A DNA stretch of 38,511 nt, taken from IMG/VR virus record IMGVR_UViG_3300028844_005055, positions 1 to 38,511 of that record, one strand, 5' to 3'. Origin of the DNA: a virus. Under the pieces are notes generated by a model. That model did no database searches. It worked only from the letters and a program-made list of their open reading frames with translations, and was not told where the DNA came from. Positions 5,940 through 38,511 of the stretch are shown here, piece by piece (the first letter of the stretch is position 1; every line of letters begins with the position of its first letter). A program made the translations under genes and the position numbers.

Positions 5940-5962
5940 GGGGAGCAATGCTCCCCTTTTTT
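5940..5962 (+). terminator. Intrinsic terminator of the 33-59-32 operon
   Basis: GGGGAGC (5940-5946), loop AAT, GCTCCCC (5950-5956), then six T (5957-5962). It overlaps the 3' end of the convergent minus-strand gene, whose stop is at 5961-5963, and may also slow transcription from that side. Confidence 0.92.
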
Positions 5963-7613: not shown

Positions 7614-10220
7614 TTAAAAATCTTGATTTAAAGTATCAGGATCAATATATTGATTGAGTTTGATCTTGTGTTTTGGTGGTGGTGCTGTATTAACACCATT
7701 TCCAGGTTTATTTTCTCCTGGTGGAGGAGATATATCATTGAAAAATCCTCGTCCTGCTAAAGGACCTGCAACAGGTTGTCTTAGTGTTTGTGCTTGCGAT
7801 TCTTGTTTTTTTGCTTCTTCTTCTACTTTTCTAGCTCTTTTTAATATACCATCTAAAATTTTATTCATTTCATCTTTAGTTTTAGGTGGAGTAAGATCAG
7901 CATCGTCCATACTTTGAAGCATTTTAGATTGCTCCATTAACTCTTTCATTCTTTTTTCATCAACATATCTTTCATATCCAAGCATTCTTCCAAAATCAGA
8001 TGGTTCTCTTAAAATGTCTCTAAAATTAAGAAGTGGTTGTTTTTTTTCAATTCTTCCAAGAGCAGATGGTTTTAGTGGTTGTTTTTTTTCAATTCTACCC
8101 TCAATATCCTTACCTTCAGGCATAGCAGTTGCTTTATAGAATCCTTTTAAAAAATCTGGAACACCAGTTAAATCAGGTCTATTTGGTTCATAATCTTCAT
8201 CATCCATACCTTGATATTGTGTAGGATCGGCATCAGATGGATAATATGTTCTCATAAACTGATCTTCTTCATCTCTAAAGACACTTTCATTCTGTGAAGC
8301 TTTTGCTTGTGACACTCCTGGTATGAGTGATCTTAGTATATCTCCTGTTGTTACTGGTGCTTTATCTGTACCTGGTTGTGACACATCTGGATCAGGTTGT
8401 GTTTTAGCATCAGGTTGTCTTTGTCTCTCTCTTTGTTGTTTTGGTAAATCGTCTCTATTAAATCTACCAGACATATGTGAACGGATAACACGCCTTGCCC
8501 ATCCAGGTAAACTATTTCCACTATAGTTAGGTCCCCAATATCTTCTTGAACCCATATCTAAATGTATGCTATTAGCATAAACTCCAATTCCTTTGTAACC
8601 AAGTGCACTGGCATTTTTTATCAATTCTTGTCTTTGTTCTATAGATAAATGTCTAACATCTATATCGATAGCATTGCCGCTTGTGTGTTGTGATTTTTTT
8701 GCACCACCAACTCTTCTATTATAACTTGGCGATCTATAACCCGATATAACTTTAAGAGGTCCTACAAATCCTTGTAATTCATTAAATCTTGAAGTAACTT
8801 CTTCATTTGCACCAGATAATTTTCTTTGTGATGGAAATTGTCTAGGTTGTTCTTGTGATGGTTCTCTTCTAGCATCAGGATGAGGTGCTGTTTCTTGTCT
8901 TGATTGTTGTTGTCTTTCCTGTTCAATTCTTTTTTGATATTCTTGTGCTCTTATTCCGTGTTTTGTTCTATATCTTCCAGCACCTATACCACCACTATAA
9001 TAGTAATCTTTTGTTATATCTTTTTTACCAACACCAAGATATTGACCGTGTGCACCTGCTTGCATTCTTCTTCTTGCAACATCTAATGATGCGTTATCTG
9101 TTGCCATACTTGTATTATTTGCACCAGACATAGTTTTGTTTATAACACTTTGCTTAAATCTTTCTAATTCTTCTGGTGAAGGATTGTAATTTTTTACTAC
9201 AGGATAATAACCCCCTCTTACTCCTTCAGATCTAACTGAAGACATTGTTGAAGATAGAGATCTGCCTCTAAACATAGATCTATTAAAAACAGTTTCAGAA
9301 AATAGTTGTTGATTTATTGGATTTTTTCCAACTTCAGATCTAGATAAATTGTAAAGTCTTCTTATTACAGCAGGATTTTCTAATTCTTTTTCAAATACTG
9401 CTTTTCTATCTCTTGCTAGACTACCGCTATATTCACCAGAACTAGGAGTTGTACCAGACGGAGATAATGATGGTCCTTGGTCTGTTTGGCCGCCTGTTCT
9501 TCTACTTCCAGATGTATCTCGTGGTAGATTAAATTCTGCATCACTTCCTGCTTGTGGTGTTCCAGGAGGTTCTTTTCTTAAAGCTGCAGCAGTACCTAAA
9601 GCAGCAGCACCTAAGGCTAGGGGACTTGTTAAAATGCCTTTAATTCCAGATAATACTGAACCAATAAGACTCTGTTTTGTTTCTTCACCAGCTCCTGTGG
9701 CATCAGCAGCTGCTACACCAGAAACAGTTTTTCCAGTAGCAGGGTCTACAACAACTGTTCCTCTAGCACCTTCAACTGCAGCAGTTCTTGCTTCTCTCTC
9801 TTGTTGAAGAGAAAGTTTATCTACTTTTTCAGTTATATTTTGAGATTGGTTGGATAGATATGTTAGTTGGTTACTTGTAACTGTGGATAGTTTTTCAATG
9901 TTCTGAGAAACAGAATCTACAGTTCTTTGTAGTTGGGTTTGTTGTGATAATATATTATCAATTTTATTATTTGTGGCAGATACATTATCTGCCACATTTT
10001 GAACACTTGTTTGTATTGAATTTATCTCAGAAGAAATTTGATCTATTTTTGATAGTTTTTCATCAATAACAGATTTAATTGAACCTATAGTATTTTCAAG
10101 TGTTTGATTATTATTAGATGCTTCTTGTCTAAAATTATTAAGATTTGTAGATAATTCATCAACTTTTGAATTTATTAAATCACTTATCTTACTTAAAATT
10201 TCTTCTGATTCTACTGCCAT
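7614..10220 (-). CDS. Large virion protein with coiled coil and M15 peptidase; tape-measure or hub candidate
   Basis: This 868-residue protein has a long N-terminal coiled coil (about 1-145), a hydrophobic Ala/Leu patch (about 185-214), a TPQA...FNLPRDTSGSR linker (about 221-240), a SleB/muramidase-like region (about 281-340: SRSEVGKN...SETVFNRSMFRG) and an M15 peptidase domain (about 470-570) with SGYRS, QHTSGNAIDID (H512, D519) and IHLD (H553), the expected zinc ligands. A disordered tail includes GRIEKKQPL twice. M15 enzymes cut peptide cross-links in peptidoglycan. Its position after gp26-gp51, where T4 has 27, 28 and 29, and its coiled coil make a tape-measure or hub role plausible, but this is inference. 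Its last codons lie close to the next gene. Confidence 0.65.
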   Translation of the reverse strand: MAVESEEILSKISDLINSKVDELSTNLNNFRQEASNNNQTLENTIGSIKSVIDEKLSKIDQISSEINSIQTSVQNVADNVSATNNKIDNILSQQTQLQRTVDSVSQNIEKLSTVTSNQLTYLSNQSQNITEKVDKLSLQQEREARTAAVEGARGTVVVDPATGKTVSGVAAADATGAGEETKQSLIGSVLSGIKGILTSPLALGAAALGTAAALRKEPPGTPQAGSDAEFNLPRDTSGSRRTGGQTDQGPSLSPSGTTPSSGEYSGSLARDRKAVFEKELENPAVIRRLYNLSRSEVGKNPINQQLFSETVFNRSMFRGRSLSSTMSSVRSEGVRGGYYPVVKNYNPSPEELERFKQSVINKTMSGANNTSMATDNASLDVARRRMQAGAHGQYLGVGKKDITKDYYYSGGIGAGRYRTKHGIRAQEYQKRIEQERQQQSRQETAPHPDARREPSQEQPRQFPSQRKLSGANEEVTSRFNELQGFVGPLKVISGYRSPSYNRRVGGAKKSQHTSGNAIDIDVRHLSIEQRQELIKNASALGYKGIGVYANSIHLDMGSRRYWGPNYSGNSLPGWARRVIRSHMSGRFNRDDLPKQQRERQRQPDAKTQPDPDVSQPGTDKAPVTTGDILRSLIPGVSQAKASQNESVFRDEEDQFMRTYYPSDADPTQYQGMDDEDYEPNRPDLTGVPDFLKGFYKATAMPEGKDIEGRIEKKQPLKPSALGRIEKKQPLLNFRDILREPSDFGRMLGYERYVDEKRMKELMEQSKMLQSMDDADLTPPKTKDEMNKILDGILKRARKVEEEAKKQESQAQTLRQPVAGPLAGRGFFNDISPPPGENKPGNGVNTAPPPKHKIKLNQYIDPDTLNQDF
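8031..8098 (-). repeat. Tandem 42-base repeat inside the M15 gene, each with an A8 run
   Basis: A segment of about 26 bases at 8031-8056 recurs with one change at 8073-8098, a 42-base period. On the coding strand each copy has eight consecutive A within the codons for GRIEKKQPL. This explains the duplicated peptide; the homopolymers are also sites where polymerase or ribosome slippage could occur. Confidence 0.8.
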
Positions 10221-10405
10221 TATACTAGACTTTCTTGTTCTCTTTCTTTTCTTTGTTCATCAAGATGTCTTAATAGCATATTCATATAGATATCCCGCTC
10301 AAATGGTATTAAGTTTTCTATTTCTGTAATAGAATATTTATGGTGTTGAGCCATTGAGAAAATTACATGATAATAATTCTCTAAACTATTATGACTCAAC
10401 GCCAA
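10220..10405 (-). CDS. 51: Baseplate hub assembly protein gp51-like
   Basis: This 61-residue all-helical protein contains YYHVIFSMAQHHKYSITEIENLIPFERDIYMNMLL, the pattern of the small gp51-type or tail-chaperone proteins that directly follow gp26 in T4-like phages. In T4, gp51 acts catalytically in assembly of the baseplate hub and is not retained in the virion. Its start lies inside the end of gene 26 (10-base overlap), and its stop overlaps the start of the next gene by one base, so translation is coupled through the cluster. Assignment rests on size, position and the HKYSxxEIExxxPxE pattern. Confidence 0.65.
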   Translation of the reverse strand: MALSHNSLENYYHVIFSMAQHHKYSITEIENLIPFERDIYMNMLLRHLDEQRKEREQESLV

Positions 10406-11103
10406 GTAAAAAAATCATTTAATGAGTTGAACTCTATAGTCCTTTCATTACCAAGAGAATTTTTATATCTAATGGTGTGTTGTAACTTTGGACAATTTTC
10501 AAAAAACTCTTGAACCTGTTCAAAAACTTTAACACTAAGGTTTTCAAGAAAGTCTTCAATTTCTTGATTTGAATAATCACTTAGTTCATAAACTTCATCT
10601 CCATTATAAATCTTATCTACACATCTAACAATTAGTTTAAACAAATGTTCATCTTCTTCATTTAAGAATTCTTTATCATCATAAAGTTTTGCAGATGGAT
10701 ACTTCATAATCATTCCAATATTATCAGAAATTTTAATAATTTCTTTCTTATCTTTTGGAACATCAACTTTAATATTCTTTAAATTTACTTCAAAATCATA
10801 AACTTTATCATCTTCATAATCTCTATATGAAACTTTTAAAACTTCTTCTACTGATATTGCTCTTAACTGTAGAAAGATATATTCTAAATCAAATATTGCT
10901 AGACTATCAATATCAAGGTCACTATCCAAAGAGCAATTATTCACTATCTGTTTAATTGCTGTAAGAATGTCTTCGGGTTCATCAGACTCTTTTGCCATCA
11001 GAAGAAGTTTTTCTTCTTTTACAAGAAAGGGTCTGAAGTTTTTCTTTTTACCAAGTGAAGGCACTTCAATCTTATATGACGGGTGTGATATTTTAGGTAA
11101 CAT
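10396..11103 (-). CDS. 26: Baseplate hub subunit gp26
   Basis: The 235-residue product begins MLPKISHPSYKIEVPSLGKK and continues FRPFLVKEEKLLLMAKES, the hallmark N-terminus of the T4 gp26 baseplate hub family. The rest is acidic and helical with a Lys/Asp-rich centre. ATG at 11101-11103 is chosen because GGAG lies six bases ahead; an upstream in-frame TTG would add four residues. T4 gp26 is needed to build the central hub that nucleates the baseplate. It is followed by gp51 as in T4, and both lie in the minus-strand operon starting at gp4. Confidence 0.9.
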   Translation of the reverse strand: MLPKISHPSYKIEVPSLGKKKNFRPFLVKEEKLLLMAKESDEPEDILTAIKQIVNNCSLDSDLDIDSLAIFDLEYIFLQLRAISVEEVLKVSYRDYEDDKVYDFEVNLKNIKVDVPKDKKEIIKISDNIGMIMKYPSAKLYDDKEFLNEEDEHLFKLIVRCVDKIYNGDEVYELSDYSNQEIEDFLENLSVKVFEQVQEFFENCPKLQHTIRYKNSLGNERTIEFNSLNDFFTWR

Positions 11104-11118
11104 TATATTCTCCAAATA

Positions 11119-11766
11119 TTATTGTAATAAATCAGTAAGTGTTTGTTGTCTTCTTAAATTAGTTCCTACGATTACATATTCTCTATAATGTGCTGATAAA
11201 GTTAATTCTACAATTCCTGGGTCTGCCCAAGAAATAGGCACCTCTGTTATAACTACAGGATATGCATCAAACAAATTAAATCCAACAGCATTTTCACCTT
11301 CTGGTGTGAATAATTTTAATTCAAATGTAGAAGAATAATCTTCTCTGAAACCAGCATCATAGTTAGGCAATTCATTTATATTTCCAGATCTTTGATCTGC
11401 ACCACCAGTAGCATCAAAAACTTCTCTTACCCAGTTATGCCAAAATCTCCAAACATCTCCCAACTTATCACAAGTTACAGTAAATATGATTTCATTGAAT
11501 TGTGTTGAGAACGGATACTTATGAACTGGACCAACACCATATCTTTGAACATTTACAGTAGAAACTGTGATTTGTGGAGTACGAACATTAGCAATTCTAA
11601 ACTCCATCATCTTAGAAATATTTCTTGTATCATTGCCACCTTCAACATTTTCAATAACAGCATTCTGTAATAGTCTAGGCAAATGAATAGTCATATTAAA
11701 CTGGTTCTTTTTCAAATAACCATTATTATGAATTTCTTCTCTAAAAGTGCTTATGTTGAAAGGCAT
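11119..11766 (-). CDS. Tail-tube-fold protein, gp54- or gp19-like candidate
   Basis: This 215-residue protein opens MPFNISTFREEIHNNGYLKKNQFNM, a start typical of myophage tube proteins, followed by beta-strand-rich sequence (MEFRIANVRTPQITVSTVNVQRYG, FNEIIFTVTCDK, WRFWHNWVREV) and a C-terminus PVVITEVPISWADPGIVELTLSAHYREY characteristic of the tube/tube-initiator fold. In T4, gp54 starts the tube on the baseplate and gp19 forms it; both share this fold. Because it lies among hub genes rather than beside the sheath gene, I lean to a tube-initiator or baseplate role. AGGAAA precedes the start. The choice between gp54 and gp19 would need a structural comparison. Confidence 0.6.
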   Translation of the reverse strand: MPFNISTFREEIHNNGYLKKNQFNMTIHLPRLLQNAVIENVEGGNDTRNISKMMEFRIANVRTPQITVSTVNVQRYGVGPVHKYPFSTQFNEIIFTVTCDKLGDVWRFWHNWVREVFDATGGADQRSGNINELPNYDAGFREDYSSTFELKLFTPEGENAVGFNLFDAYPVVITEVPISWADPGIVELTLSAHYREYVIVGTNLRRQQTLTDLLQ

Positions 11767-11783
11767 TTAAATTTCCTGTTTGT

Positions 11784-12323
11784 TTATCTTTTATATACCC
11801 ATTGTGCTGTTTGTAGAGGAACTACATTTTCCCATTCATCTACTGGTATTCTTATGAATCTACTTCTAATGTGTCCTCTAAGGTAATGCTTTACACATAA
11901 TCTCATTAATGGGTCTTTACTATCAAAATTAACATTTAATCTAAAATTAGGAGGTATGTCTTTTCTGTCTATACCTGTTAAATTAAATAGAAACTGTAAT
12001 CTCATTTTAGGGTCTTCTATATAATGAAGATTTAATCCTAAAAATCCACCTTTTGCTGGTCCCAATGGAATAACAAGAGGGAATCTATCCCACATTGGTA
12101 ATGTATCTTTATGTTTAGCATCATAGTAAAACATAATTAGATTACCTTGACCTCTGTTTCCAGAAGTTTTTAGTATATTAGTTCCTTTATCATCAGGGTC
12201 TGTAGGAAGTCTATTATAACCAGTAAGTTGTCCGACTCTATTTTGAAACCATTCTGCTGATTTTTGTCTTAGACTCTCTAGTGTTTTTCTGTTTAATAAT
12301 TTTAACAGATTTGAAAAATTCAT
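11784..12323 (-). CDS. Conserved T4-like structural or assembly protein, 179 residues
   Basis: The central part reads LIMFYYDAKHKDTLPMWDRFPLVIPL then GGFLGLNLHYIEDPKMRLQFL, a segment I recognise from many T4-like myophages without an established role. The N-terminus is a basic helix and the C-terminus ends NVVPLQTAQWVYKR. There is no enzyme motif or membrane segment. It is the second gene of the minus-strand operon; its start overlaps the gp4 stop by one base. Position among gp4, tube-fold protein and gp26 suggests a late structural or assembly role. Confidence 0.7.
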   Translation of the reverse strand: MNFSNLLKLLNRKTLESLRQKSAEWFQNRVGQLTGYNRLPTDPDDKGTNILKTSGNRGQGNLIMFYYDAKHKDTLPMWDRFPLVIPLGPAKGGFLGLNLHYIEDPKMRLQFLFNLTGIDRKDIPPNFRLNVNFDSKDPLMRLCVKHYLRGHIRSRFIRIPVDEWENVVPLQTAQWVYKR

Positions 12324-25531: not shown

Positions 25532-28500
25532 ATGTCATCTTTAAAAACAAATTTTAATGTTTCTCCATATTTTGATGATTATGATGAAGATAAGAATTTT
25601 TATAAAATTTTGTTTAGACCCTCTGTTGCTGTTCAAGCAAGAGAATTGACACAACTCCAAACAATTTTACAAAAACAAATTGAAAGATTTGGTAACAATG
25701 TTTTTAAAGATGGTACTATAGTTGATGGTGTTGCAATATTTTATTATCCAAATTTAGATTACATATCTATTGAAGACAAAATATATTTTGCAAATGGTGT
25801 AGAATCAACAGTTGTTCCTACTGATCTAAATGTTTACTCATTAGATCCTCAAACATATATTGTTACAAATTCAACAGATTCAAATAATGCTGTTAGAGCA
25901 AATATTAAGTTAGCAAAAAGTGGATTAAAATCAACCGCACCAAATACTAATAGATTTTATCTTGATTATATAACTTTTGGTACAGATTCTTCTAACAATA
26001 AAGTTTCTACATTTTTACCAGGAGACACTCTTTACATATATTCTGAAAATCAAAATGAATTTGGAACATTAGACGCTAATAATTTATTATACACAACAAA
26101 TACTATTGCTACAAATAGTAGTTTTACATCTAATGGACAATCTTATTCTGTAGGTGTTTCAGATGGTATAATTTTTCAAAAAGGATTTTTTTCAAAAGTA
26201 GAACCACAGGTTGTAACTGTTAATGAATTTTCTACAAATGTAACAGGTTATGTTGTTGGTTTTGAGACAGCAGAAAATATTATAAACGACCAAGAAGATT
26301 TAAGTTTAACAGACAATGCTCTAGGATATCCTAATGAAAATGCTCCTGGTGCATATAGATTAAAATTAAATCCGACTTTAGTATCAAAATTAAAAACAGA
26401 CACATCAAATACTAACTTTTTTTCTATTGTAGAATTTGATTCAAATGAACCAACACAGCAAAGAGATATAACTGAATATAATGCTATTCAAAAAGAGTTA
26501 GCAAAAAGAACATATGAAGAATCTGGTGATTATTTTATTAAACCATTCACTGCTGAAACAAGAGTTAATTCTTCTAATTCACAATCTTTCTTTTATGAAA
26601 TGTCTTCTGGTATTGCTTATGTTCGTGGTAATAGAATAGAAAAAATATCCACCGTTAATGTTGAAGCAGATAGAGCAATAGCAACTGAATTTGCGGAAAA
26701 TCAGATTGTTACAGCAAATTATGGTAATTATGTCATATGTGATGAATTTGTGGGCGTTTTTGATACAGAACAACTTTCTGAAGTAACTCTTTACGATTCT
26801 CCACAAAATTCTATATCTGAATATGAAGGAAGTACATCAACTCCAGTTGGAACATCTGTTGGTAAAGCAAATGTTAGAGCAGTTTCGTTTGAAGAGGGCG
26901 TAAAGGGCAGTCCTACCGGAAAATATTATGTATACTTATTTAATATTCAAATGAATTCTGGAAAAAGTTTTTCCTCCGATGTAAAAAGTCTTTATATGTC
27001 TGGTTCTTTTGGTGATGCTAAAGCAGATATTGTATTGGAAGGTGGTATTGCTAAACTAAAAGACACAACTAAAAAATCTTCAGTGTTTGATAGTGGACTA
27101 CTTGCAATAAAAAGATTAACAAATAATACTGGAATTGGTGATACAAACTTTACATATTCTCAGATAAAATCAGGTACTATAAATGGGTCTGGTATATTAA
27201 CAATATCACTTGACACTCCAGCAACTGGTGCTTCAACAGAAAGACTTAATCAATCTTCTGGTTCTGTGTTAACTGGTTCTTTATTGGAAGAATATGATGT
27301 ATTTTTATCAACGAATGCATATTCTGCTAACTTAACAGGAAATGTTTCTATAACTGCAGGTTCTTCTAGTGTTATAGGAGACGGTACAGATTTTACAAAT
27401 GAACTAGCAGCAAACTCTAATATTAGAGTTTATGCAAACTCAACACAAACATATATAAAAAGAATTGTATCTATTGGGAATAGCACATCTTTAACAGTGG
27501 ATTCGTCATTTTCAGAATCTAATACAGCAAGTAAATTTGGTAAATATTTTGTCACAGGAACCCCATTACCACTTGCAAATGTTACTATAAATTCTAATAC
27601 CTCATTTTCTGCTAATTTGGGTTTAACATTGGATAGTGGTTCTCAAACCATTTATGCATCATATATTGTAAATAGAAACCAAGCAAACCCTATACCAAAA
27701 ATAATAAATAAAAATAAATTTGTAAAAATTGATTGTAGTAATAATGTTGCTACTAGTGTAGGTCCTTGGGACTTAGGATTTTCTGAAGTTCATAAAATTA
27801 GAAATATTTATGTTGGTACGACATATGCAAACACAAATCCTAATAGAACAACTTGGTTTAATCTAGACAGAGGCAGCAGAGAAGATGCATTAGAACATTC
27901 TAGATTATTTGTAAAACCTGAATATGCATCTAACATATCAGGATCTACTAAGTTTTTGATAGAATTAGACCACTTTACCGCAAACACTTCTGCTTCAGTG
28001 GGATTCTTTTCTGTTGAATCATATCCTATAGATGATGTTAATACTGCAAATACAAATGCTATACAGACTATAGAATTACCAGTAGAAAACGAATCAGAAA
28101 TAAGAAATTTTATTGATTTTAGATCAATAAAATCAAATACTGCGATTTCTTCTTCTACAGAAGGTTCTGCTACTATAAATCCAGCATTAAATACAAATAA
28201 TTACGTTATACCAGCAACTGGACAACATATGATTGTTCCTGATAGTAATTTTGTAGCAGATTATGAATATTATTTGCCTAGAAGAGACATCATTACTATA
28301 AATCCAATTGGCGAGTTCATAGTAAACCAAGGTGTTCCATCAGAAATACCTCAAGCACCATTTGTTGAAAACGATCAAGTTTTATTAAAAGAAACTTTTG
28401 TTCCACCATATCCTTCTGCTACAAGAAGAGAATATGAGACTTATAAGTCTTCTCAAGAAATAAAAATATTTGATAGGTCTAATCGTAGATATACTATGAA

Positions 28501-31500
28501 AGATATCGGAACAATAGATAGGAGACTAAAAAGACTTGAATATTATACAGTTCTAAATGCTCTTGAGCAAAAAGCAAAAGATTTAACTATACCTGATGTC
28601 AATGGTCTTGATAGATTTAAAAATGGTATATTTGCCGATCCATTCAATTCTCATAAAATAGGAAATGTTTCTGATTTTGAATATAAAATTTCTATCGATA
28701 AAGATGAAACTGTAGCAAGACCTTTCTTTGAAAAACATAATATAGATTTTAAATTTACTCCAAACACATCCTCAGATTCTGTAAAGTCTTCTAATGTTAA
28801 AAGAAGAGGACCATTAGTATTATTAGACTATGAAGATGAAAGATATATATCACAAGAATTTTCAACAAAATATAGAGTTGTTGCAGAATCTGCTTGGCAA
28901 TGGAACGGTATTGTAGATCTATATCCAAATTATGACTATTTTCAAGATGAAACAATTGTTCCTAATGTAAATGTAGATATTGACCTATCAACACCCTGGG
29001 AACAATTTGCCGAATCTCCATTTGGAACCATTTTTGGTGATTGGAGAAATATTTCTAGCACTTCCAGAACAAGACTAATAGGTCAGGGTGTAACTACTAC
29101 AACTTCAACAGTTCAAGAACAAATTATAAACGAACTGCAAGTAAATACTCTAACAGAGAATATAGACTTGGGTGCATATGTAAAAGATGTATCTCTAAAT
29201 CCATATATGAGATCAAGAGTTGTTGCATTCTTAGCAAATGGTATGAAACCAAGGAGTAATATACACGTATTTTTTGACAATGTTAACGTTGATGAGCATT
29301 GTGCTCCTGGTGAATTATCTGGTTTGACTGAGCCACAAGAAGGTCTTGAAGATAGAATAGTAAACCAAGATGGAGAATACGGCACACAATTAGTAGCAAA
29401 TGAAAGCGGAACTGTTGTAGGTCTGTTTAGAATACCAGAAAGAACATTTAGAACTGGCGAAAGAGTTTTTGAATTAAATAATGTTAGAGATATTTCAGAA
29501 GGCGAAGATGCTAGATCAACTATCGCATTTACTACTTATATGGCAGAATCTATTTCTGTTACTAAAGGTTCTACAACACTTGTTGTGAGACAACCACAAT
29601 TATCTACACTATCAACATCACAAAGAAGAACTTTAACTTCAACTCAAACTACATTTATTGCTAGAGAACCAGGTGATGGTGATGGTGATGGTGGTGATAG
29701 CGATCCTATGGCACAATCATTCACTATTGAAAACTTACCAGCCGAAATAACAGGAATATATTTAAATAGTGTTGGTTTATATTTTAGATATAAAGACAGA
29801 ACTGTTGGATGTTCAGTTTTCATTTGTGAAATGGAAAATAATATGCCTGATCAATCTAGAATTATTGGACAGGCCCATTTAACAGAATCTGAAATATCTG
29901 TTTCTAGAGGACCTACTTTTGGAGAACCTTTAGTAGAGACCATTTTTGAATTAGATTTTCCAGTTTACTTAATGTCTAATAAAGATTATGCTTTTATAGT
30001 TCAGCCAGATGGAGGGAGTCCAAATTATGCAATCTGGACTTGTGAGACTGGAGATTTTGATGTAACAACAGACCAACAAGTCTTTTCAAATCCATATTCT
30101 GGAATTATGTTTATCTCAGCAAACAGAAAAACTTGGACTGCTATTCAAAAAGAAGATATAACTTTTAATCTTTATAGAGCAAAGTTTAATCAATTAAATG
30201 GAAATGCTATATTTAAAAATGAAGATGATGAATATTTATCATTGGAAGGATTTACAAGAGCAAATACTTCATTAGGTATATCTGTCGGTGATGTTGTTCT
30301 TACTGTAAATGGTTCAATATCAACTCAAAATACTCTTAATATTTTTTCTAATACTCTAGCAAATTCAGTTTCTGGTAGAGTTCAATACATTAATGAAGCA
30401 GAAGGTGAACTTTGGATAGATTCATCTACAGCAAACACTACAACATATTTCTCTAATACTGTAAATCCTGTTATAGCAGTATATAGAATTGAAACAAGTA
30501 ATACACAAGAATATCACTCATCTATTAGTGAATCAAAACTAATAGCGTATTCTAATGTTACTAGTGTTGATAACTTAAAATATCACGCAGTAGTTCCAAA
30601 GTTTGGTGTTCTTCAGCCATCTAGAACAACTTTAACATATAATTTTAAAGGGACTTCAAATTCAAATATTACAGATTCTGCATATCATAATGTTGTTAAT
30701 GAATACGATTATCAATTTATTGACACTGAACGACACGCAATGTCTAAATCAAATGAAATAAATGATTTGTCATCAAACAAATCTTCAATTTTCGATGTTA
30801 ATTTACAAAGCCAATCTGATTTAACTTCTCCTGCTATAAACTTATCTAGAAAATCTTCATTTTTTATTGAAAACTTGATTAATAATGATTATACAGATGA
30901 ACATACAAGATATGGTAATGCATTATCAAAATACATTTCTAAAAAAATAGTTTTAGCAGATGGACAAGAAGCAGAAGATTTAAAGGTTTATATGACTGCT
31001 TATAGACCTGCAGATACTGATGTTAAAGTTTATGCTAAATTCTGGAATGATCAAGATCCTCAAGAATTTAATGATAAGGTATGGACAGAATTACAATATG
31101 ATAATGGTGGAAGTTTTGTTTTCTCGTCACCAACAGATACGAGAAATTTTATAGAATATGAATTTTCTGTTCCAACTATAAATGCAGTTTCGTTTGGAGC
31201 ATTTGCTAATGTGGGAGTTAATATATATAATCCATTGTCAGGTGGTGTATCAATAGAATCAAGTAATACTACTATATCAGCAAAAGAACACACTTTCAAT
31301 GCTAATACTGATGTTAATAATTCTAATAATACTATTAATATAGCAGATGCTAATACATATTTTTCTGTTGGTGATGAAGTGATTTATAATGTTAATGCTG
31401 GAAATACTGCAATAACAGGTCTAACAGAAAATAATAAATATTATGTTTCTTTTTCTAACACAACACAAATGGCACTTTCAGAATCAAGAACTGGTGCAAA

Positions 31501-31870
31501 TATAGATATATCAGCAACATCTGTTTCTGAAACAGGACATTTCTTTACTGGAACATTCTTTACAGAAGATTTCACAGTTGGTGATAGAATTAGAGTCGAA
31601 TCAACTGATTACTTTGCAGTTAGAACTATAACTAATATTTCAAATAATACTAGTATGATAGTTGATAATGGATTAGAATCAACAAATACTGCTGCTGTAT
31701 ATTATGTGTTTGCATCTGGTGGTGGTGATGGTATAGTAGAATATGAAAACTCTGATGGATCTAGATTTGTAGGATATAAAGAAGTATCATTAAAAATAGT
31801 TCTACTATCATCTAATCCTGTAAGAGTTCCTAGATTAAATGATGTGAGAGGCATTTGTTTACAGGTATAA
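25532..31870 (+). CDS. Giant baseplate or fibre protein with DUF4815-type N-terminus, 2112 residues
   Basis: The N-terminus NFNVSPYFDDYDEDKNFYKILFRPSVAVQARELTQLQTILQKQ is the hallmark of DUF4815 proteins that follow gp8 in marine T4-like phages; they are large virion proteins connecting baseplate and fibres, sometimes compared to gp10. Further ordered regions: a helical segment RRYTMKDIGTIDRRLKRLEYYTVLNALEQKA (about 990-1020), SRVVAFLANGMKPRSNIHVFFDNVNV (about 1228-1253), a short GDGDGDGGDSD linker (about 1383-1393) followed by DPMAQSFTIENLPAEITGIYLNSVGLYFRYKD, and Ser/Asn/Thr-rich beta stretches. It occupies one-sixth of the window. AGGAAG precedes the start. Exact position in the virion is inferred. 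Confidence 0.8.
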   Translation: MSSLKTNFNVSPYFDDYDEDKNFYKILFRPSVAVQARELTQLQTILQKQIERFGNNVFKDGTIVDGVAIFYYPNLDYISIEDKIYFANGVESTVVPTDLNVYSLDPQTYIVTNSTDSNNAVRANIKLAKSGLKSTAPNTNRFYLDYITFGTDSSNNKVSTFLPGDTLYIYSENQNEFGTLDANNLLYTTNTIATNSSFTSNGQSYSVGVSDGIIFQKGFFSKVEPQVVTVNEFSTNVTGYVVGFETAENIINDQEDLSLTDNALGYPNENAPGAYRLKLNPTLVSKLKTDTSNTNFFSIVEFDSNEPTQQRDITEYNAIQKELAKRTYEESGDYFIKPFTAETRVNSSNSQSFFYEMSSGIAYVRGNRIEKISTVNVEADRAIATEFAENQIVTANYGNYVICDEFVGVFDTEQLSEVTLYDSPQNSISEYEGSTSTPVGTSVGKANVRAVSFEEGVKGSPTGKYYVYLFNIQMNSGKSFSSDVKSLYMSGSFGDAKADIVLEGGIAKLKDTTKKSSVFDSGLLAIKRLTNNTGIGDTNFTYSQIKSGTINGSGILTISLDTPATGASTERLNQSSGSVLTGSLLEEYDVFLSTNAYSANLTGNVSITAGSSSVIGDGTDFTNELAANSNIRVYANSTQTYIKRIVSIGNSTSLTVDSSFSESNTASKFGKYFVTGTPLPLANVTINSNTSFSANLGLTLDSGSQTIYASYIVNRNQANPIPKIINKNKFVKIDCSNNVATSVGPWDLGFSEVHKIRNIYVGTTYANTNPNRTTWFNLDRGSREDALEHSRLFVKPEYASNISGSTKFLIELDHFTANTSASVGFFSVESYPIDDVNTANTNAIQTIELPVENESEIRNFIDFRSIKSNTAISSSTEGSATINPALNTNNYVIPATGQHMIVPDSNFVADYEYYLPRRDIITINPIGEFIVNQGVPSEIPQAPFVENDQVLLKETFVPPYPSATRREYETYKSSQEIKIFDRSNRRYTMKDIGTIDRRLKRLEYYTVLNALEQKAKDLTIPDVNGLDRFKNGIFADPFNSHKIGNVSDFEYKISIDKDETVARPFFEKHNIDFKFTPNTSSDSVKSSNVKRRGPLVLLDYEDERYISQEFSTKYRVVAESAWQWNGIVDLYPNYDYFQDETIVPNVNVDIDLSTPWEQFAESPFGTIFGDWRNISSTSRTRLIGQGVTTTTSTVQEQIINELQVNTLTENIDLGAYVKDVSLNPYMRSRVVAFLANGMKPRSNIHVFFDNVNVDEHCAPGELSGLTEPQEGLEDRIVNQDGEYGTQLVANESGTVVGLFRIPERTFRTGERVFELNNVRDISEGEDARSTIAFTTYMAESISVTKGSTTLVVRQPQLSTLSTSQRRTLTSTQTTFIAREPGDGDGDGGDSDPMAQSFTIENLPAEITGIYLNSVGLYFRYKDRTVGCSVFICEMENNMPDQSRIIGQAHLTESEISVSRGPTFGEPLVETIFELDFPVYLMSNKDYAFIVQPDGGSPNYAIWTCETGDFDVTTDQQVFSNPYSGIMFISANRKTWTAIQKEDITFNLYRAKFNQLNGNAIFKNEDDEYLSLEGFTRANTSLGISVGDVVLTVNGSISTQNTLNIFSNTLANSVSGRVQYINEAEGELWIDSSTANTTTYFSNTVNPVIAVYRIETSNTQEYHSSISESKLIAYSNVTSVDNLKYHAVVPKFGVLQPSRTTLTYNFKGTSNSNITDSAYHNVVNEYDYQFIDTERHAMSKSNEINDLSSNKSSIFDVNLQSQSDLTSPAINLSRKSSFFIENLINNDYTDEHTRYGNALSKYISKKIVLADGQEAEDLKVYMTAYRPADTDVKVYAKFWNDQDPQEFNDKVWTELQYDNGGSFVFSSPTDTRNFIEYEFSVPTINAVSFGAFANVGVNIYNPLSGGVSIESSNTTISAKEHTFNANTDVNNSNNTINIADANTYFSVGDEVIYNVNAGNTAITGLTENNKYYVSFSNTTQMALSESRTGANIDISATSVSETGHFFTGTFFTEDFTVGDRIRVESTDYFAVRTITNISNNTSMIVDNGLESTNTAAVYYVFASGGGDGIVEYENSDGSRFVGYKEVSLKIVLLSSNPVRVPRLNDVRGICLQV

Positions 31871-31871
31871 T

Positions 31872-32057
31872 ATGAAAGAAACAGAAGATAGTTTTGTAAG
31901 AGACAATAATAATACAGGATGTGTTTTAAATACTGATAATAATGCTTTAAAAGCATATAAATTAAAAAAACAAAAAAATAAGGAAATAGATAATCTAAAA
32001 GAAGAAGTTAAAGATATAAAAAATATGTTAACTTTAATTTTAGAAAATATGAAATAA
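31872..32057 (+). CDS. Small coiled-coil protein, 61 residues
   Basis: The product is hydrophilic; residues 28-61 (KAYKLKKQKNKEIDNLKEEVKDIKNMLTLILENMK) form a clear heptad-type helix. It starts one base after the giant protein's stop and is likely co-translated with it. Small coiled-coil proteins at this place could aid fibre folding or trimerisation, but I recognise no family. Confidence 0.6.
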   Translation: MKETEDSFVRDNNNTGCVLNTDNNALKAYKLKKQKNKEIDNLKEEVKDIKNMLTLILENMK

Positions 32058-32076
32058 TTTTATTGAGATTTATGAT

Positions 32077-32745
32077 ATGAATAAAAATGATATTTCTGCA
32101 TTTGCTATACCAATTAGATATGGTATGTTAAATGTTAATGATTTGAATAAAAAATTAATAGAAGATATATTTTTAGAATTGAATAATAACGGAAACGAAA
32201 AAAGAAGTGGTGTAGGTGTTTATCAAACCAAATCTGGTTTAGAAAAAAAATATGAAAGTTTTAAAACTCTTTCTGAAAAAATTAAATATTTTTTGTTAGA
32301 TTTTATGAAGAATGTTAAAGTATACGATGAGTTTTTTATTAAAGATGTATGGGGCAATATTAATAATGATCCATTTGCTTTTCATATGCCTCATTCACAT
32401 GGTATAAATAATTCTTGTATTTTTACTGGAGTTTATTTTCCTACCTCTGGGTATCTTGATAATGATATATCAAAAGAATGTAATAATTCTAAGTCTCCTA
32501 TAATTACATCTAAAACACAACCAAATCCTGGAGATTTAGTTTTATTAGATCCAAATGAAAATATAAAAACGGCAATAGCAACTAAAAAAACTGAAAAATA
32601 TCCTTTTTTTGGAAATCCTATTTGTATAACTCCTATTAAAAATACTATAGTTGTTTTTCCGTCTTATTTGAATCATATGGTTACACCATCCAAGAAAGAA
32701 AATTATACTAGAATAAGTATAGCATATAATGTGAGTGTTTTATGA
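32077..32745 (+). CDS. 2OG-Fe(II) oxygenase
   Basis: This 222-residue protein belongs to the 2-oxoglutarate/iron-dependent oxygenases of the type often seen in marine phages: FAFHMPHSHGINNSCIFTGVYFP (about residues 100-122, with the H106-x-H108 pair of the HxH/D motif), GDLVLLDP (152-159) and IVVFPSYLNHMVTPSKKENYTRISIAYNV (191-219), giving distal ligand H200 and 2OG-binding R212. All catalytic elements are present. Substrate is unknown: protein side chains and nucleic-acid bases are both known for the superfamily. Its stop overlaps the carbamoyltransferase start (ATGA), making it the first gene of a coupled four-gene cassette of very low GC content. Confidence 0.85.
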   Translation: MNKNDISAFAIPIRYGMLNVNDLNKKLIEDIFLELNNNGNEKRSGVGVYQTKSGLEKKYESFKTLSEKIKYFLLDFMKNVKVYDEFFIKDVWGNINNDPFAFHMPHSHGINNSCIFTGVYFPTSGYLDNDISKECNNSKSPIITSKTQPNPGDLVLLDPNENIKTAIATKKTEKYPFFGNPICITPIKNTIVVFPSYLNHMVTPSKKENYTRISIAYNVSVL

Positions 32746-34229
32746 GAATTTTATCTGCTGCTTTAGTAAACCATGATACTAATTTTTGTTTTTATGATAA
32801 CGGAAAAATTAAATATCATAAATTAGAAAGAACAAAACAAGAAAAAAGATATGTTCTTTATCCTATACAGAGATGGAAAAAAGAAGTTGAAAATTTATGG
32901 AATATAAAAATTGATGAAATTGACGATATTATATTTCAATTTGATCCATATACTATGTTACCAAACCATTTGAAAAATAAAATATTTAATTCAGATTTTT
33001 TACAAAAATTAGATAGTGATGTTTGTTCTTATCTTGGAGTAAAAAGTGCTTGGTTTATAGGCCATCATTATTCACATGCAAAAAGCACTTGGATGATGGA
33101 AGATAAAAAAAGTGATATACAAATTGTTATTGATGGTCTTGGAGATGGTAGACCTTGGACCATATATAAAGATAATGAAATTTTAGATTTTGGTGATATA
33201 AAAAAAGGATCAATAGGATGGGGAATGAGAGATGCTGGTAAATTTTTGGGAATAAGAGCAATACACCAAAATGATATAGCAGGAAAACTTATGGGTCTAC
33301 AATCATATGGTAATGTTGATTATGATTTTTTAAATAAACTTTCTATCTATAATATGGACGATATTAATACAATATTTGATAAGTCATTGTGGAAAAATGA
33401 ATCATCATATATTGACTGGATAAGAACTATTCATTTTAAGATTGGAAATTTGCTTGTAGATTTTTTTAAAAAATATACTAATAAATATGATATAATTTCA
33501 TATTCTGGTGGTGTTGCGCAAAATGTTGTTTGGAATACACAACTAAAAAACAATTTTCCAAATATTATAATACCACCACATTCTTCTGATGAAGGGATTA
33601 GTTTAGGTGCTATAAAAGTTTTACTTGATTATCATGGTATAACTATTTCAAAAATAAATAATTTTCCTTATTGTCAATCAGATATTGCACCACCAAAATC
33701 ACCGTCTGATAAAACTATTGATAGGATAGTTGAACTTTTATCAAATAATAAAACTGTAGGTGTTTATTTTGGTAATGGTGAAATAGGACCACGAGCACTT
33801 GGAAATAGATCTATATTAATGAACCCTAAAATAAAAAATGGTAAAAACAAAATAAATGACATAAAAAATAGAGAATACTATAGACCTTTTGGTGCAGTAA
33901 TTTTAGAAAAATATTTTGATAAATATTTTAATGGTTTTGCTGATGAATATATGTTATACACATCTGAATTTAAAAATAGTTCTTATGTGTATGATTCTAT
34001 ATCTCACATAGATAATACTTGTAGATTACAAATATGTAAAGATGGTAATATGAAAAAAATATTAGAAAAGTTTAATGAAAAAACAGGTTGTTCAATGTTA
34101 TTGAACACTAGTTTAAATTTATCGGGTAAACCAATAGCAGGGTATCCACAAGATGCCTTTTCTTTATTTAAAAGTTCTAATTTAGATTGTGTCGTTATTG
34201 GAGATAAAATATATGAAAGTAAATTTTGA
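32742..34229 (+). CDS. NodU/TobZ-type O-carbamoyltransferase
   Basis: This 495-residue enzyme has both parts of the family. The Kae1-like N-terminal domain shows NHDTN (10-14), HHYSHA (108-113), DGLGDG (131-136) and SYSGGVAQN (253-261); the C-terminal YrdC-like domain shows GEIGPRALGNRSIL (346-359), REYYRPFGAVI (377-387) and NTSLNLSGKPIAGYP (455-469). The family transfers a carbamoyl group from carbamoyl phosphate, via carbamoyl-adenylate, to a hydroxyl group. Known acceptors are sugars and antibiotics, and in some phages hydroxymethylated DNA bases. All signature residues look intact. It overlaps the oxygenase gene and lies beside two PRPP-type proteins, so an oxygenase-made hydroxyl is an attractive acceptor. 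GC content is very low (14 of 60 bases in 33361-33420). Confidence 0.93.
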   Translation: MRILSAALVNHDTNFCFYDNGKIKYHKLERTKQEKRYVLYPIQRWKKEVENLWNIKIDEIDDIIFQFDPYTMLPNHLKNKIFNSDFLQKLDSDVCSYLGVKSAWFIGHHYSHAKSTWMMEDKKSDIQIVIDGLGDGRPWTIYKDNEILDFGDIKKGSIGWGMRDAGKFLGIRAIHQNDIAGKLMGLQSYGNVDYDFLNKLSIYNMDDINTIFDKSLWKNESSYIDWIRTIHFKIGNLLVDFFKKYTNKYDIISYSGGVAQNVVWNTQLKNNFPNIIIPPHSSDEGISLGAIKVLLDYHGITISKINNFPYCQSDIAPPKSPSDKTIDRIVELLSNNKTVGVYFGNGEIGPRALGNRSILMNPKIKNGKNKINDIKNREYYRPFGAVILEKYFDKYFNGFADEYMLYTSEFKNSSYVYDSISHIDNTCRLQICKDGNMKKILEKFNEKTGCSMLLNTSLNLSGKPIAGYPQDAFSLFKSSNLDCVVIGDKIYESKF

Positions 34230-34245
34230 ATTAGAAGAATATAAA

Positions 34246-34824
34246 ATGTCAAATAAACAATATATCTCTAAAATAATTTCAGAACAATGTGTTGAAAAAG
34301 CAGATGGTTATTTCTTTGGAAAAATGCCAGGAACTAGATATTCTTCTCAATTTTATTTATCAAGAGCACTATATAATACTGATTTTTTAAATTGTGTAGC
34401 GGAAGAATTTTATAAAATAGTTGAAAATGAAATAGGAAATTTTGAATTTCAGATTACAGGACAAGAGTTTTCATCAATACCTCTCTTAGTTTCAATTCCT
34501 ATTTTATTAGAAAAAAAATATGACATTAAATTAAATTCTTTTATGATTAAAAATGAAAGAAAAACATATGGCATACATAACTATATTGAGGGAAATACTT
34601 TAGATTTGCCTGTTCTTATTATAGGAGAAATGTGTAATTCTACCAATACATTTTTACATTGTCATAATGTATTAAAATATCAAAAATTTGTCATTTTACC
34701 TTATATTTTTGCAGTTCTAAATAAATATGGGTCTAAGTTTCCAAATTGGAACTCTGAAGATAGATATTTAAAAAGAGATTTTAAACCATTGACAATTTTA
34801 AATAGAGATGATTTGAAAATATGA
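34246..34824 (+). CDS. Orotate phosphoribosyltransferase-like protein, likely inactive copy
   Basis: This 192-residue product has the order of a PyrE-type enzyme: PGTRYSSQFYLSRALYNTDFL, FEFQITGQEFSSIPLLVSIPI, FMIKNERKTYGIHNYIEG, then the PRPP-loop position PVLIIGEMCNSTNTF (122-136). In active enzymes this reads like VxxVDDxxxTGxT; here the two Asp are replaced by Gly127 and Glu128 and the Gly of the loop is missing, so PRPP binding is doubtful. ATG at 34246 is chosen because it aligns with the neighbouring paralogue; starts at 34189 or 34213 would overlap the previous gene. The stop overlaps the next start (ATGA). It may act as a non-catalytic partner of the following protein. Confidence 0.75.
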   Translation: MSNKQYISKIISEQCVEKADGYFFGKMPGTRYSSQFYLSRALYNTDFLNCVAEEFYKIVENEIGNFEFQITGQEFSSIPLLVSIPILLEKKYDIKLNSFMIKNERKTYGIHNYIEGNTLDLPVLIIGEMCNSTNTFLHCHNVLKYQKFVILPYIFAVLNKYGSKFPNWNSEDRYLKRDFKPLTILNRDDLKI

Positions 34825-35531
34825 TAGAGTCTGAAAAAAAGTTAGAAATCAAAAATAAAATACAAAAATTTATAGATGAAGATTGTATTTTTAGGTGCAA
34901 TCCTGAGATTGAATATGTCCCTAAACATATAAAAGGAGTTATTCCAGGAAAATATAAAGATAATAAATATCAATTTTTTCTGAGAAAACTTTCACATAAT
35001 TCTACTATGCTTTATTATAGTAGTTTATTGTTGTTAGATGAGATTTTATTAAGATATGTTCAAGAAGAAAAAGAACCATATTTTCAATTGTGTGGATTAG
35101 AAACTGGATCTTTACCTTTAATTACTGGAATTCAACAAAATGCTTTAAAATTTAATATAAATATTAATAGTTTTTCTGTTAGGAAGAATAGAAAATCTTA
35201 TGGTCTTTTTAATTTTGTAGAGGGCATCCCAACAGATGCTCCAGTAATTATAGTAGATGACTTGATAAATAGTGGTGGTAGTTGTTTTAGATGCTTAGAT
35301 GTGTGTAAATATGAATTAGGATTAGAAGTTGTGAATGAGTTTTATTCAATAATGACTTTTCTTGACGACCCATATCGTATTAATTTTAAAGATATTGATT
35401 ATACTATAAATTCTTTATTTGTAAAAAGTGATTTTGATTTAAATTATGATCCTGATAAATATTGGATTCCAGATGATTGTGATAAGAGTATAAATAAAAG
35501 ACCAGAGTATCAACAGGGAATTCTTTATTAG
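34821..35531 (+). CDS. Orotate phosphoribosyltransferase-like protein, apparently active
   Basis: The 236-residue paralogue of the previous protein keeps the PRPP motif PVIIVDDLINSGGS (141-154, D146-D147), plus YFQLCGLETGSLPLITGI (87-104) and FSVRKNRKSYGLFNFVEG (118-135), the flexible catalytic loop with Lys/Arg typical of PyrE. An extra C-terminal segment ends KYWIPDDCDKSINKRPEYQQGILY, partly replacing the usual end. PyrE makes orotidylate from orotate and PRPP; with a carbamoyltransferase next door, another acceptor such as a modified base is equally possible. It is the last gene of the cassette and holds a candidate late promoter for the following fibre gene. Confidence 0.85.
   Translation: MIESEKKLEIKNKIQKFIDEDCIFRCNPEIEYVPKHIKGVIPGKYKDNKYQFFLRKLSHNSTMLYYSSLLLLDEILLRYVQEEKEPYFQLCGLETGSLPLITGIQQNALKFNININSFSVRKNRKSYGLFNFVEGIPTDAPVIIVDDLINSGGSCFRCLDVCKYELGLEVVNEFYSIMTFLDDPYRINFKDIDYTINSLFVKSDFDLNYDPDKYWIPDDCDKSINKRPEYQQGILY
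35489..35496 (+). promoter_or_regulatory. Candidate late promoter for the fibre genes
   Basis: A perfect TATAAATA lies within the last codons of the second phosphoribosyltransferase-like gene, 58 bases ahead of the fibre gene at 35554. It would let the fibre genes be transcribed late and independently of the cassette. AT-rich background makes a chance match possible. Confidence 0.45.
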
Positions 35532-35553: not shown

Positions 35554-36327
35554 ATGACAATAACAGTAGCAAATACAGCAAACACTAATACATTTGACTA
35601 TTGGAGAAATAGAACAAATGAACTAGCAGATGCTATGACAAATAAAACAGTAACAGTAGATTCTAATACTGCTACTGGTAATGCTGCTATTACTGGAACA
35701 TTTTCAGCAAATGTTTTATTTTTAGGCAACACCACAGTAAACTCAACCTCAAACTCTACCTCTATCACATTTGGAAATACTGTACAAAATACTGTTGTCA
35801 ATACTTCTTCTATCACATTTGGAAATACTGTACAAAATACTGTTGTCAATACTTCTTCTATCACATTTGGAAATACTGTACAAAATACTGTTGTCAATAC
35901 TTCTTCTATCTTTATATCAAACTCTACATCAAACTTAACTATTTCAATACCTACAACATCTCAGTATGCAAATGGTAAGTTTTTTCTAAATGCAAATGGT
36001 TCATTTACTTTAGTTGAAGCCTCTATTAAGGGAAATATTGAAACTTCTGGAACAACAAATACAGAAATCAATAACTATTTAACAAATACATTCGCATCAG
36101 CAGAATATTTGCTTGCTGTAAAAGATAATAACGCTAATAATTATCAGTCTTCTAAAATATTAATTACTCACGATGTAGATAATGCATATTTGTCTGAATA
36201 TGCAATAATAGTTTCAAATAACTATGTTGGTTCATTTTTTGCAAATTCAAACACATCTCATGTTAGATTATATTTTAATCCAACATCAACAAACACCACT
36301 ATTAACTTTACAAGAGTTGAAGCATAA
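35554..36327 (+). CDS. Fibre-like structural protein with 16-residue tandem repeats
   Basis: This 257-residue protein contains an N-terminal NTFDYWRNRTNELADAMTNKTVTVD attachment-like segment, then LGNTTVNSTSNSTSITFGNTVQNTVVNTS with three exact copies of a 16-residue unit (about residues 70-117) and a C-terminal domain (TNTEINNYLTNTFASAEYLLAVKD...ILITHDVDNAYLSEYAIIVSN) common in marine phage fibres. The GNTTVNS motif links it to the protein at 23253. AAGAGAAG precedes the start. The repeats would form a beta-solenoid shaft; copy number can vary by recombination. Confidence 0.7.
   Translation: MTITVANTANTNTFDYWRNRTNELADAMTNKTVTVDSNTATGNAAITGTFSANVLFLGNTTVNSTSNSTSITFGNTVQNTVVNTSSITFGNTVQNTVVNTSSITFGNTVQNTVVNTSSIFISNSTSNLTISIPTTSQYANGKFFLNANGSFTLVEASIKGNIETSGTTNTEINNYLTNTFASAEYLLAVKDNNANNYQSSKILITHDVDNAYLSEYAIIVSNNYVGSFFANSNTSHVRLYFNPTSTNTTINFTRVEA
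35761..35904 (+). repeat. Three perfect 48-base tandem repeats
   Basis: Units begin at 35761, 35809 and 35857 with tctatcacatttggaaatac and are identical across 48 bases; a partial fourth copy follows at 35905. Identity at the DNA level, not only in protein, indicates recent amplification or gene-conversion. They encode the shaft repeats of the fibre protein. Confidence 0.95.
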
Positions 36328-36660: not shown

Positions 36661-38511
36661 ATGAAATTTTATGTTGAAAGTGTTGTAAATAAATCTGATT
36701 TAGAAGATGATTTTACAATAGAAGAAAATGTTTTCTTTCAAGATGAAAAAATTGTTATTATTGATAATATGGAATATCACTTAAACCATGGTGATATTGT
36801 TATTTGTGAAGATAAAAAATATTTCATAAATCCCTTTGACATAACAACAGATTCTTTTAAATATGAAATAGATAATATTTGGAATTTAAAAGAAGATAAC
36901 ATTCCCCCTAAAAATAATAAAAAATATTTACTAATTGTTCCAGAGAATGAATATTCTGGACAATCTTTATTGTTTACTGAATATAATAATAAAATTATAA
37001 AAAGAAATGAAAATGGTTCTACTGAAGTATATAATAATTCCACAAATGAATATTTTTTAAAAGAAGAACAGGTTGTTGTTTCTTATGAGGGTGGATCTTT
37101 AGTTCCAGTTGAAAGAAAACATATACCATTAATTTTAGAAACAAATATAAAAAATGAAAAATTATTTGAGACTATAGAAAGAGGTGAACAGGGTCCACAG
37201 GGTATTCCAGGTAAAGATGGTATTCAAGGTCCTAAAGGTACTCCTGGTAAAGATGGTATTCAAGGTCCAAAAGGTGATACAGGTGAACAAGGTCCAAAAG
37301 GTGATACAGGCGAACAAGGCCCACAGGGTATTCCAGGCAAAGATGGCAGCCAAGGACCACAAGGTATCCCAGGTAAAGATGGTATTCAAGGTCCAAAAGG
37401 TGATACTGGAGAACAAGGTCCAAAAGGTGATACTGGAGAACAAGGTCCAAAAGGTGATACTGGAGAATCAGGAGCAAGTGCAGATAATGAACTTATAAAA
37501 CAAATTGAAAAACAATTTAATAAGTTTCAAGAGAACGATAAAGAATATAGACAAAAATTAAATGCACAATTATCAACTCTTGGTGGAGGTGGTTCTACTC
37601 AATTACTAGATAATGATGATGTAATCTACAAACCAATTTCTACATTATCAAATAATACTATCCTATTCTATACAAATACTGATAAAAAATTCAAAACTAT
37701 TACATTACAACAAGCTGTTACAGATGCAGGTATTTCTACAGGTGGTGGTGGAGGAATATCATTAACTGATTTAAGTGTAACAAAAAATGCAGTTGGAACA
37801 GCAAATCTCAGTTATGATAATACTACTGGAGTTTTTAGTTATACACCACCTGATTTAACATCATATCTAACTACAGTATCTTTTGGTGATTTAACAAGTA
37901 CACCAACAACAATTTCTGGATATGGTATTACAGATGCCTTTGATGGTGATTATAATAGTTTATCAAATCAACCAACAATTCCAACTGTTTTAGATTCGGT
38001 TACAAATACATCTATTACACTTGTAGCAGCTGCAAACTCAGTAAAAACTGCATATGATAGTGCTATTGATGCAAATACAAGAGCTGCTAGTGCTCAAACA
38101 GAAGCATCAAGTGCTTATTCAAATGCAGTTTCTTATACTGATACCCAATTAACAAATTATCAAACAGAAGCTGGTTTATCTGCTAATGTTGCTACACTAA
38201 CATCTAATAATTCATTATTCTTAGGTGGAGTTGCTGCAGCTGATTATCAAACTGAAGCAGGTTTATCTGCTAATGTTGCTACTTTAGCTGCTAATTCTGC
38301 AACATATTTAAATGGAAATACTGCAAGTGATTTAAGGTCTTATTCTGATACAACATCTGCTACTGCATATTCTAATGCAGTTTCTTATACTGATACAGAA
38401 TTAGCTAATTATCAAACGGAAGCAGGACTGGCATCCAATGTTGCCACTTTAACATCTAATAATTCTGATAATTTAGGTGGAGTTGCTGCTGCATCATATG
38501 CACAATTAGCA
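36661..38511 (+). CDS. Collagen-like tail fibre protein (3' end beyond window)
   Basis: The frame is open from ATG 36661 through 617 codons to the window edge. An N-terminal beta-rich domain ([20 protein letters not shown]..., to about residue 170) is followed by 33 perfect Gly-X-Y triplets (175-273), then a helical stretch ([22 protein letters not shown]), a GGGGS hinge and long repeats: [18 protein letters not shown]..., [18 protein letters not shown]..., [18 protein letters not shown]..., separated by LGGVAAA and SYSDT. This is a trimeric fibre, with a collagen rod followed by a repetitive shaft; the receptor-binding tip would lie beyond the window. It shows no phase variation signal apart from the repeats. 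Confidence 0.88.
37183..37479 (+). repeat. Collagen-like Gly-X-Y tract, 33 triplets
   Basis: The triplets are uninterrupted and dominated by GPKGDTGEQ and GPQGIPGKD units, as in bacterial and phage collagens where Lys-Gly-Asp/Glu pairs stabilise the triple helix without hydroxyproline. DNA copies are near-identical, especially the three GEQGPKGDT units at the end. Confidence 0.95.

Follow-up and report, generated by a model that had tools for sequence, protein, structure and literature searches.

Carbamoyltransferases and 2-oxoglutarate (2OG)-Fe(II) oxygenases have been noted in cyanophages (PMC3037559), oxygenases are co-located in pelagiphages (PMC9599517), and phage metagenomes have yielded a 5-hydroxymethylcytosine (5hmC) carbamoyltransferase (PMC8670742). 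In the 38,511-bp stretch of viral DNA analysed here (the window, which is the entire virus record G000), an oxygenase gene, OXY, and a carbamoyltransferase gene, CBT, are followed by PRT1 and PRT2, two genes for relatives of orotate phosphoribosyltransferase (OPRTase, PyrE). Tree and gene order identify this PRT pair as two ancient paralogues, carried by many aquatic phages and kept adjacent and overlapping. The four genes occupy what may well be, though we hold this tentatively, an exchangeable cargo slot between the small gene P473 and the fibre genes, with a two-subunit OPRT-like core and optional tailoring enzymes.

The PRT pair shares with PyrE, a type I phosphoribosyltransferase (PRTase), the fold, a phosphoribosyl pyrophosphate (PRPP) motif in PRT2, a loop Lys that is (nearly) invariant and a profile match of both proteins. 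It differs in consisting of two adjacent diverged paralogues, in the extra conserved C-terminal tail of PRT2 and in the 10–19% identity to solved OPRTases in structural matches. PRT1 (192 aa; 34246–34824, plus strand) has no Pfam or PHROG match as a single sequence, and its single-sequence search of phage records returned nothing, so that profiles were needed to find its relatives. A profile built from 11 relatives matches solved OPRTases (3mjd at 2.8e-11), and the AlphaFold2 model of PRT1, with a predicted local distance difference test (pLDDT) score of 86, matches OPRT-type PRTases in Foldseek at 1.9e-10. PRT2 (236 aa; 34821–35531, plus strand) matches phrog_32468 (1.9e-7), its profile matches OPRTases in the PDB at 4.4e-8, and its AlphaFold2 model (pLDDT 86) gives a Foldseek match at 8.5e-10. 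The top Foldseek matches of both models are all OPRT-type or other PRTases, in keeping with the type I PRTase fold. With 33% identity to each other, PRT1 and PRT2 are by these comparisons paralogues of an OPRTase-like family, and the description of two PyrE-like proteins in the initial annotation holds for profiles and folds alike. The 16-base gap that it placed between CBT and PRT1 exists only if PRT1 starts at 34246; translation could instead begin at an in-frame ATG at 34213, preceded by GGAG, and PRT1 would then overlap the end of CBT.

Conservation of the active-site motifs is asymmetric. The PRPP motif of PRT2 is intact (VDDLINSGGS; catalytic loop VRKNRKSYG), and D146 and D147 are invariant in 11 PRT2 sequences. 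PRT1 of the window clade has lost their equivalents, its motif being degenerate (VDD to IGE, in IGEMCNSTNT), and retains the catalytic-loop Lys; in two others the pair of residues is altered. Against the OPRT loop R-K-x-x-K-x-H, PRT2 reads R-K-N-R-K-S-Y and PRT1 K-N-E-R-K-T-Y, both with Tyr in place of His. At the position of the Arg after the central strand of OPRT, which we take to be an orotate contact, PRT1 has an invariant Lys, and no equivalent is recognisable in PRT2. Because this Arg is not kept, orotate is an unlikely substrate of the pair, and synthesis of orotidine monophosphate is not claimed. The PRT2 tail (DKYWxPxDCDKSxNKRPEYQ), encoded at 35423–35531 on the plus strand, is conserved at the protein level in the PRT2 alignment.

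A family search returned 52 viral loci with PRT relatives. In the tree, PRT1 and PRT2 each form one clade of 14 rows, with support of 100/100 and 99/95, and the two are sister clades, while 30 single-copy relatives fall outside them. PRT1 and PRT2 are neighbours in about a dozen lineages, are adjacent at every locus of the paired clades and overlap briefly at most of these loci. The genes of the gp45 clamp and the gp44 clamp loader flank the pair in about eight lineages, and single-copy relatives are found near nrdA/nrdB, RNase H or PhoH; neighbour names were read from the sequences, with gp45, gp44 and gp62 checked by Pfam. On one related contig, L242 (4939–6630), a lone PRT2 lies downstream of a 2OG oxygenase and a 150-aa open reading frame (ORF). 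Among cellular organisms a genome scan gave one match, within a 539-aa ORF of a metagenome-assembled genome of Candidatus Giovannonibacteria. The cyanophage phosphoribosyl transferase T4-GC 40 (P-SSM2, P-SSM7) is a distant relative, placed after gp44 in the clamp-loader region of P-SSM7; it differs in being a single gene, more OPRT-like, with 26–27% identity over half of PRT2. The literature searched, which covers few subscription journals, contained no account of such a pair.

The paired sister clades, mostly located between gp45 and gp44, point to a heteromeric phosphoribosyltransferase with a role at the nucleotide level. From the OPRT mechanism, the asymmetric motif conservation and the gene neighbourhoods we infer a PRT1-PRT2 heteromer in which PRT2 would bind PRPP and PRT1 would lend its catalytic loop; OPRTase active sites are common to both subunits of the dimer. 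The heteromer would join phosphoribose to a free base, probably other than orotate, and the product would serve nucleotide supply or provide a modified nucleotide during phage replication.

The composition of the slot varies between close relatives. Its left border is P473 (61 aa; 31872–32057, plus strand; phrog_473, 1.8e-6), and its right border is the fibre-region gene FIB0 (35554–36327, plus strand), which is the conserved next gene whether the slot is filled or empty. In a survey of 80 contigs with a relative of the upstream tail gene, P473 is followed directly by FIB0 in 40. The order OXY-CBT-PRT1-PRT2 occurs in the window and in L063, which are 97.7% identical (L numbers denote related contigs), and nowhere else, so that all four genes come together within one phage population only. 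L069 and L007 carry OXY and PRT1-PRT2 with CBT deleted between them. The alignment of L007 to the window ends at 32827 and restarts at 34166, an in-frame deletion of 1,338 bp that leaves 28 + 14 codons of CBT and is possibly an assembly effect; the flanking OXY and PRT genes are still under purifying selection. L071 and L077 have PRT1-PRT2 without OXY or CBT, L064 terminates inside the OXY gene, and the slot of L073 reads PRT1-PRT2-ASPH-PRT1-PRT2, ASPH standing for a PF05118 hydroxylase. L073 matches L071 exactly over 9,937 bp and then adds ASPH-PRT1-PRT2 (9937–11898) with an exact repeat of the 127-bp PRT2 tail, although a repeat of such size at the end of a contig could stem from assembly.

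The window and L071 are 97% identical up to about 25713–25733, diverge strongly and are again 95–96% identical from about 35427. The block swapped between these near-identical phages (L071, L072) spans 25713–35486 and includes, besides the cargo, the gene of the 2,112-aa tail protein gp10L (25532–31870, plus strand), in which the identity break with L071 falls. The right breakpoint lies in the conserved 3' tail of PRT2, at 35427–35486 in L071 and at 35423 in L005/L086. By these alignments gp10L and cargo are exchanged as one block; the cargo varies within a single phage backbone, and what its versions have in common is the PRT pair. Since the oxygenase and CBT vary between close relatives, the cargo is better described as exchangeable than as a fixed four-step pathway. 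The initial proposal of one functional unit is not supported, as CBT is deleted in a relative and the PRT pair stands alone in others; its own check, co-occurrence in other phages, confines the full set to one population. With one or two of the genes missing in relatives, the set of four was rejected as the conserved unit.

All four ORFs of the initial annotation are present, with ATGA contacts at 32742 and 34821. The ratio of nonsynonymous to synonymous substitution rates (dN/dS) is 0.13–0.18 for OXY, PRT1 and PRT2, compared with a relative at 80–87% identity, and 0.12 for CBT, compared with the contig at 97.7% identity; this purifying selection backs the four ORFs as real genes. OXY (222 aa; 32077–32745, plus strand) matches PF13759 (1.5e-8; 35.3 bits against a curated cut-off of 27) and phrog_81 (1.1e-24). 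Aligned with the oxygenases of HTVC008M, P-TIM68 and S-SCSM1, it keeps the HxH motif at 106–108, the distal His200 and Arg212, and this profile match together with the Fe and 2OG ligands identifies it as a PF13759 2OG-Fe(II) oxygenase. The first assignment as an oxygenase holds. Membership of the TET type is not supported and was rejected on the Pfam matches: Tet_JBP (PF12851) was absent among the Pfam hits of OXY at E up to 1 and gave no match anywhere in the record, and control genomes likewise gave none for Tet_JBP.

CBT (495 aa; 32742–34229, plus strand) was assigned correctly to the carbamoyltransferases. It matches PF16861 (1.9e-45), PF02543 (1.7e-11) and phrog_1601 (1.9e-123), and in the PDB TobZ and its relatives at 1e-24 to 1e-29. 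The motifs H108, H112, D131, D283 and GPRALGNRS are present, and the four metal ligands are invariant with S-CAM1. CBT is accordingly recognised as a complete NodU/TobZ-type O-carbamoyltransferase, with a Kae1-like N-terminal domain carrying the metal ligands and a YrdC-like C-terminal domain, both above the Pfam cut-offs. The closest records are the Nol-like carbamoyltransferases of cyanophages and HTVC008M (phrog_1601), which have the same architecture and metal ligands and 30–37% full-length identity. They stand alone in most cyanophages examined: in seven cyanophage records CBT occupies several slots without an adjoining oxygenase, two having one five or six genes upstream. In the HTVC008M isolate, on the other hand, CBT overlaps a 2OG oxygenase gene and is followed by a second oxygenase. 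In L155, L157 and L167, CBT is ringed by 2OG-type oxygenase genes, three or four different ones in each. In many contigs among L197–L217 the next gene after CBT encodes a radical SAM/SPASM protein, and another radical-SAM-like ORF is often close by.

The oxygenase-carbamoyltransferase pairing of the initial proposal is seen again in other phages: a 2OG oxygenase lies within two genes of CBT in 15 of 30 carbamoyltransferase lineages. Positions neighbouring CBT hold an oxygenase in 27 of 110 cases, against 24 of 191 farther off on the same contigs (p 0.01), a comparison inflated because CBT neighbours had served in part to define the oxygenase families. As for the PRT pair, 4 of 12 lineages have a 2OG oxygenase within two genes of it, compared with a rate of 1.3% among genes elsewhere on the same contigs (binomial p 0.003), the lineages in these adjacency tests having been set by eye or at 85% identity. 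Because oxygenases recur beside PRT genes and beside CBT in other phages, a hydroxylate-then-carbamoylate chemistry is plausible. TobZ carbamoylation consumes ATP and carbamoyl phosphate, and in the weaker step of the proposal the oxygenase would hydroxylate a small molecule whose hydroxyl CBT would cap with ATP and carbamoyl phosphate in a TobZ-like manner.

Besides the weaknesses of the adjacency tests, several observations weigh against a slot built around a heteromeric core. Most PRT1 outside the window clade retain VDD, and PRT1 is therefore not necessarily a pseudo-subunit; the single-copy relatives show that one protein can suffice; L242 has PRT2 without PRT1, with a degenerate catalytic loop; and the cargo of the window lies in the late structural region, in contrast to the replication-module homes of its relatives. 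The four may instead be unrelated auxiliary genes gathered in one permissive, recombination-prone slot, their adjacency having no further meaning, which is possible if somewhat doubtful. Elsewhere each has a separate home, the oxygenase between UvsX and gp41 in other T4-like phages, CBT alone in cyanophages and the PRT pair between gp45 and gp44, and their confinement as a set to one population speaks the same way. Oxygenases nevertheless stand near the PRT pair and CBT more often than elsewhere in the contigs, and the OXY and CBT genes overlap in HTVC008M. It is unlikely that the cargo decorates a small molecule, glycan or capsule, in the manner proposed by Iyer and colleagues for a cyanophage cluster. 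That cluster, in S-SSM6a, combines carbamoyltransferases with 2OG oxygenases (PMC7824862), and some contigs have up to four oxygenases around one CBT. The S-SSM6a cluster also has a halogenase and a methylase, whereas the slot has no glycosyltransferase, halogenase or methyltransferase, and the passage on the cluster mentions no PRT pair, for which the proposal has no place.

Modification of a virion protein, with the oxygenase hydroxylating for instance the collagen-like fibre or an adsorption protein and CBT capping it, is rather improbable. The cargo is flanked by gp10L, with which it is swapped, and by the fibres, and the fibre at 36661–38511, of a kind seldom seen in related fibre regions, contains 33 GXY triplets whose Y positions include Pro and Lys. 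L071, however, has the fibre and no slot oxygenase, so the fibre does not need it; relatives of the cargo genes sit in the replication module; and the nearest solved structure to OXY, a prolyl 4-hydroxylase, is not a significant match (E 0.83). Collagen-fibre hydroxylation was rejected: the tract occurs in 3 of 51 slot contigs (the window, L063 and L071), one of them without an oxygenase, and as L071 shares its fibre region with the window at 95%, the association has no independent weight. Least probable is a DNA hypermodification of the TET/5hmC carbamoyltransferase type, one of the options initially envisaged. A phage-type carbamoyltransferase of the CBT superfamily, found by MetaGPA, does act on 5hmC in DNA and nucleotides, and relatives of the cargo genes are found in replication modules; but the partner of that enzyme is a thymidylate-synthase-type gene rather than an oxygenase or PRT, carbamoyltransferases of unmodified contigs are reported in other settings (PMC8670742), and OXY belongs to PF13759 without a Tet_JBP match. 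No thymidylate-synthase-type gene is found in the 38.5-kb fragment, which is a partial record.

Within the preferred reading, a two-subunit core with optional tailoring enzymes, the steps could be joined in one route. The oxygenase would hydroxylate a free pyrimidine, as thymine-7-hydroxylase of fungi does, CBT would cap the new hydroxyl and the PRT1-PRT2 heteromer would add phosphoribose, so that a modified nucleotide joins the pool of the phage; hydroxylases of other kinds (PF05118, PF13640) would supply the PRT pair in other lineages. This would call for an OPRT derivative with altered base specificity, and the joint chain is speculative and very improbable.

The window is, by its gene content, a 38.5-kb partial genome of a T4-like aquatic phage, with gp32-type proteins, a helicase loader, a baseplate hub, wedge proteins and fibres. 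The nearest relatives of its wedge protein, at 32–36% identity, are from Caulobacter phage Cr30, Sinorhizobium phages and Pelagibacter phage HTVC008M. The location inside the fibre region agrees with the first reading: gp10L and P473 lie upstream of the cargo, and FIB0, the fibre-assembly-type FIB1 (phrog_3304/1084) and the collagen-like fibre downstream. The AT bias also noted there is real, the 3,455-bp stretch having a GC content of 25.1% against a median of 30.7% for stretches of equal size and falling among the lowest ~1.5%, but it does not mark a unit. Third-position GC of the four genes (0.11–0.14) is at the level of the adjoining structural genes, so the low GC reflects amino-acid content, and a foreign GC island was dropped. 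The T4 late promoter TATAAATA gave 8 matches against 8.05 expected and is uninformative. Two gp32-type single-strand-binding genes (938–1933 and 5040–5933; phrog_224, 2e-107 and 1.2e-112) lie inside 5 kb, and a 549-aa minus-strand ORF (5961–7610) without a PHROG match adjoins an 868-aa ORF with an endolysin/peptidase domain.

The natural variants of one phage without oxygenase, CBT or both offer a ready comparison of the contribution of each gene. A diverged pair of OPRTase-like paralogues, found at two unrelated genome positions in many T4-like phages, points to a two-subunit phosphoribosyltransferase, so far undescribed, in the nucleotide metabolism of phages and, if the hydroxylase link is true, would represent a new phage route to modified nucleotides.

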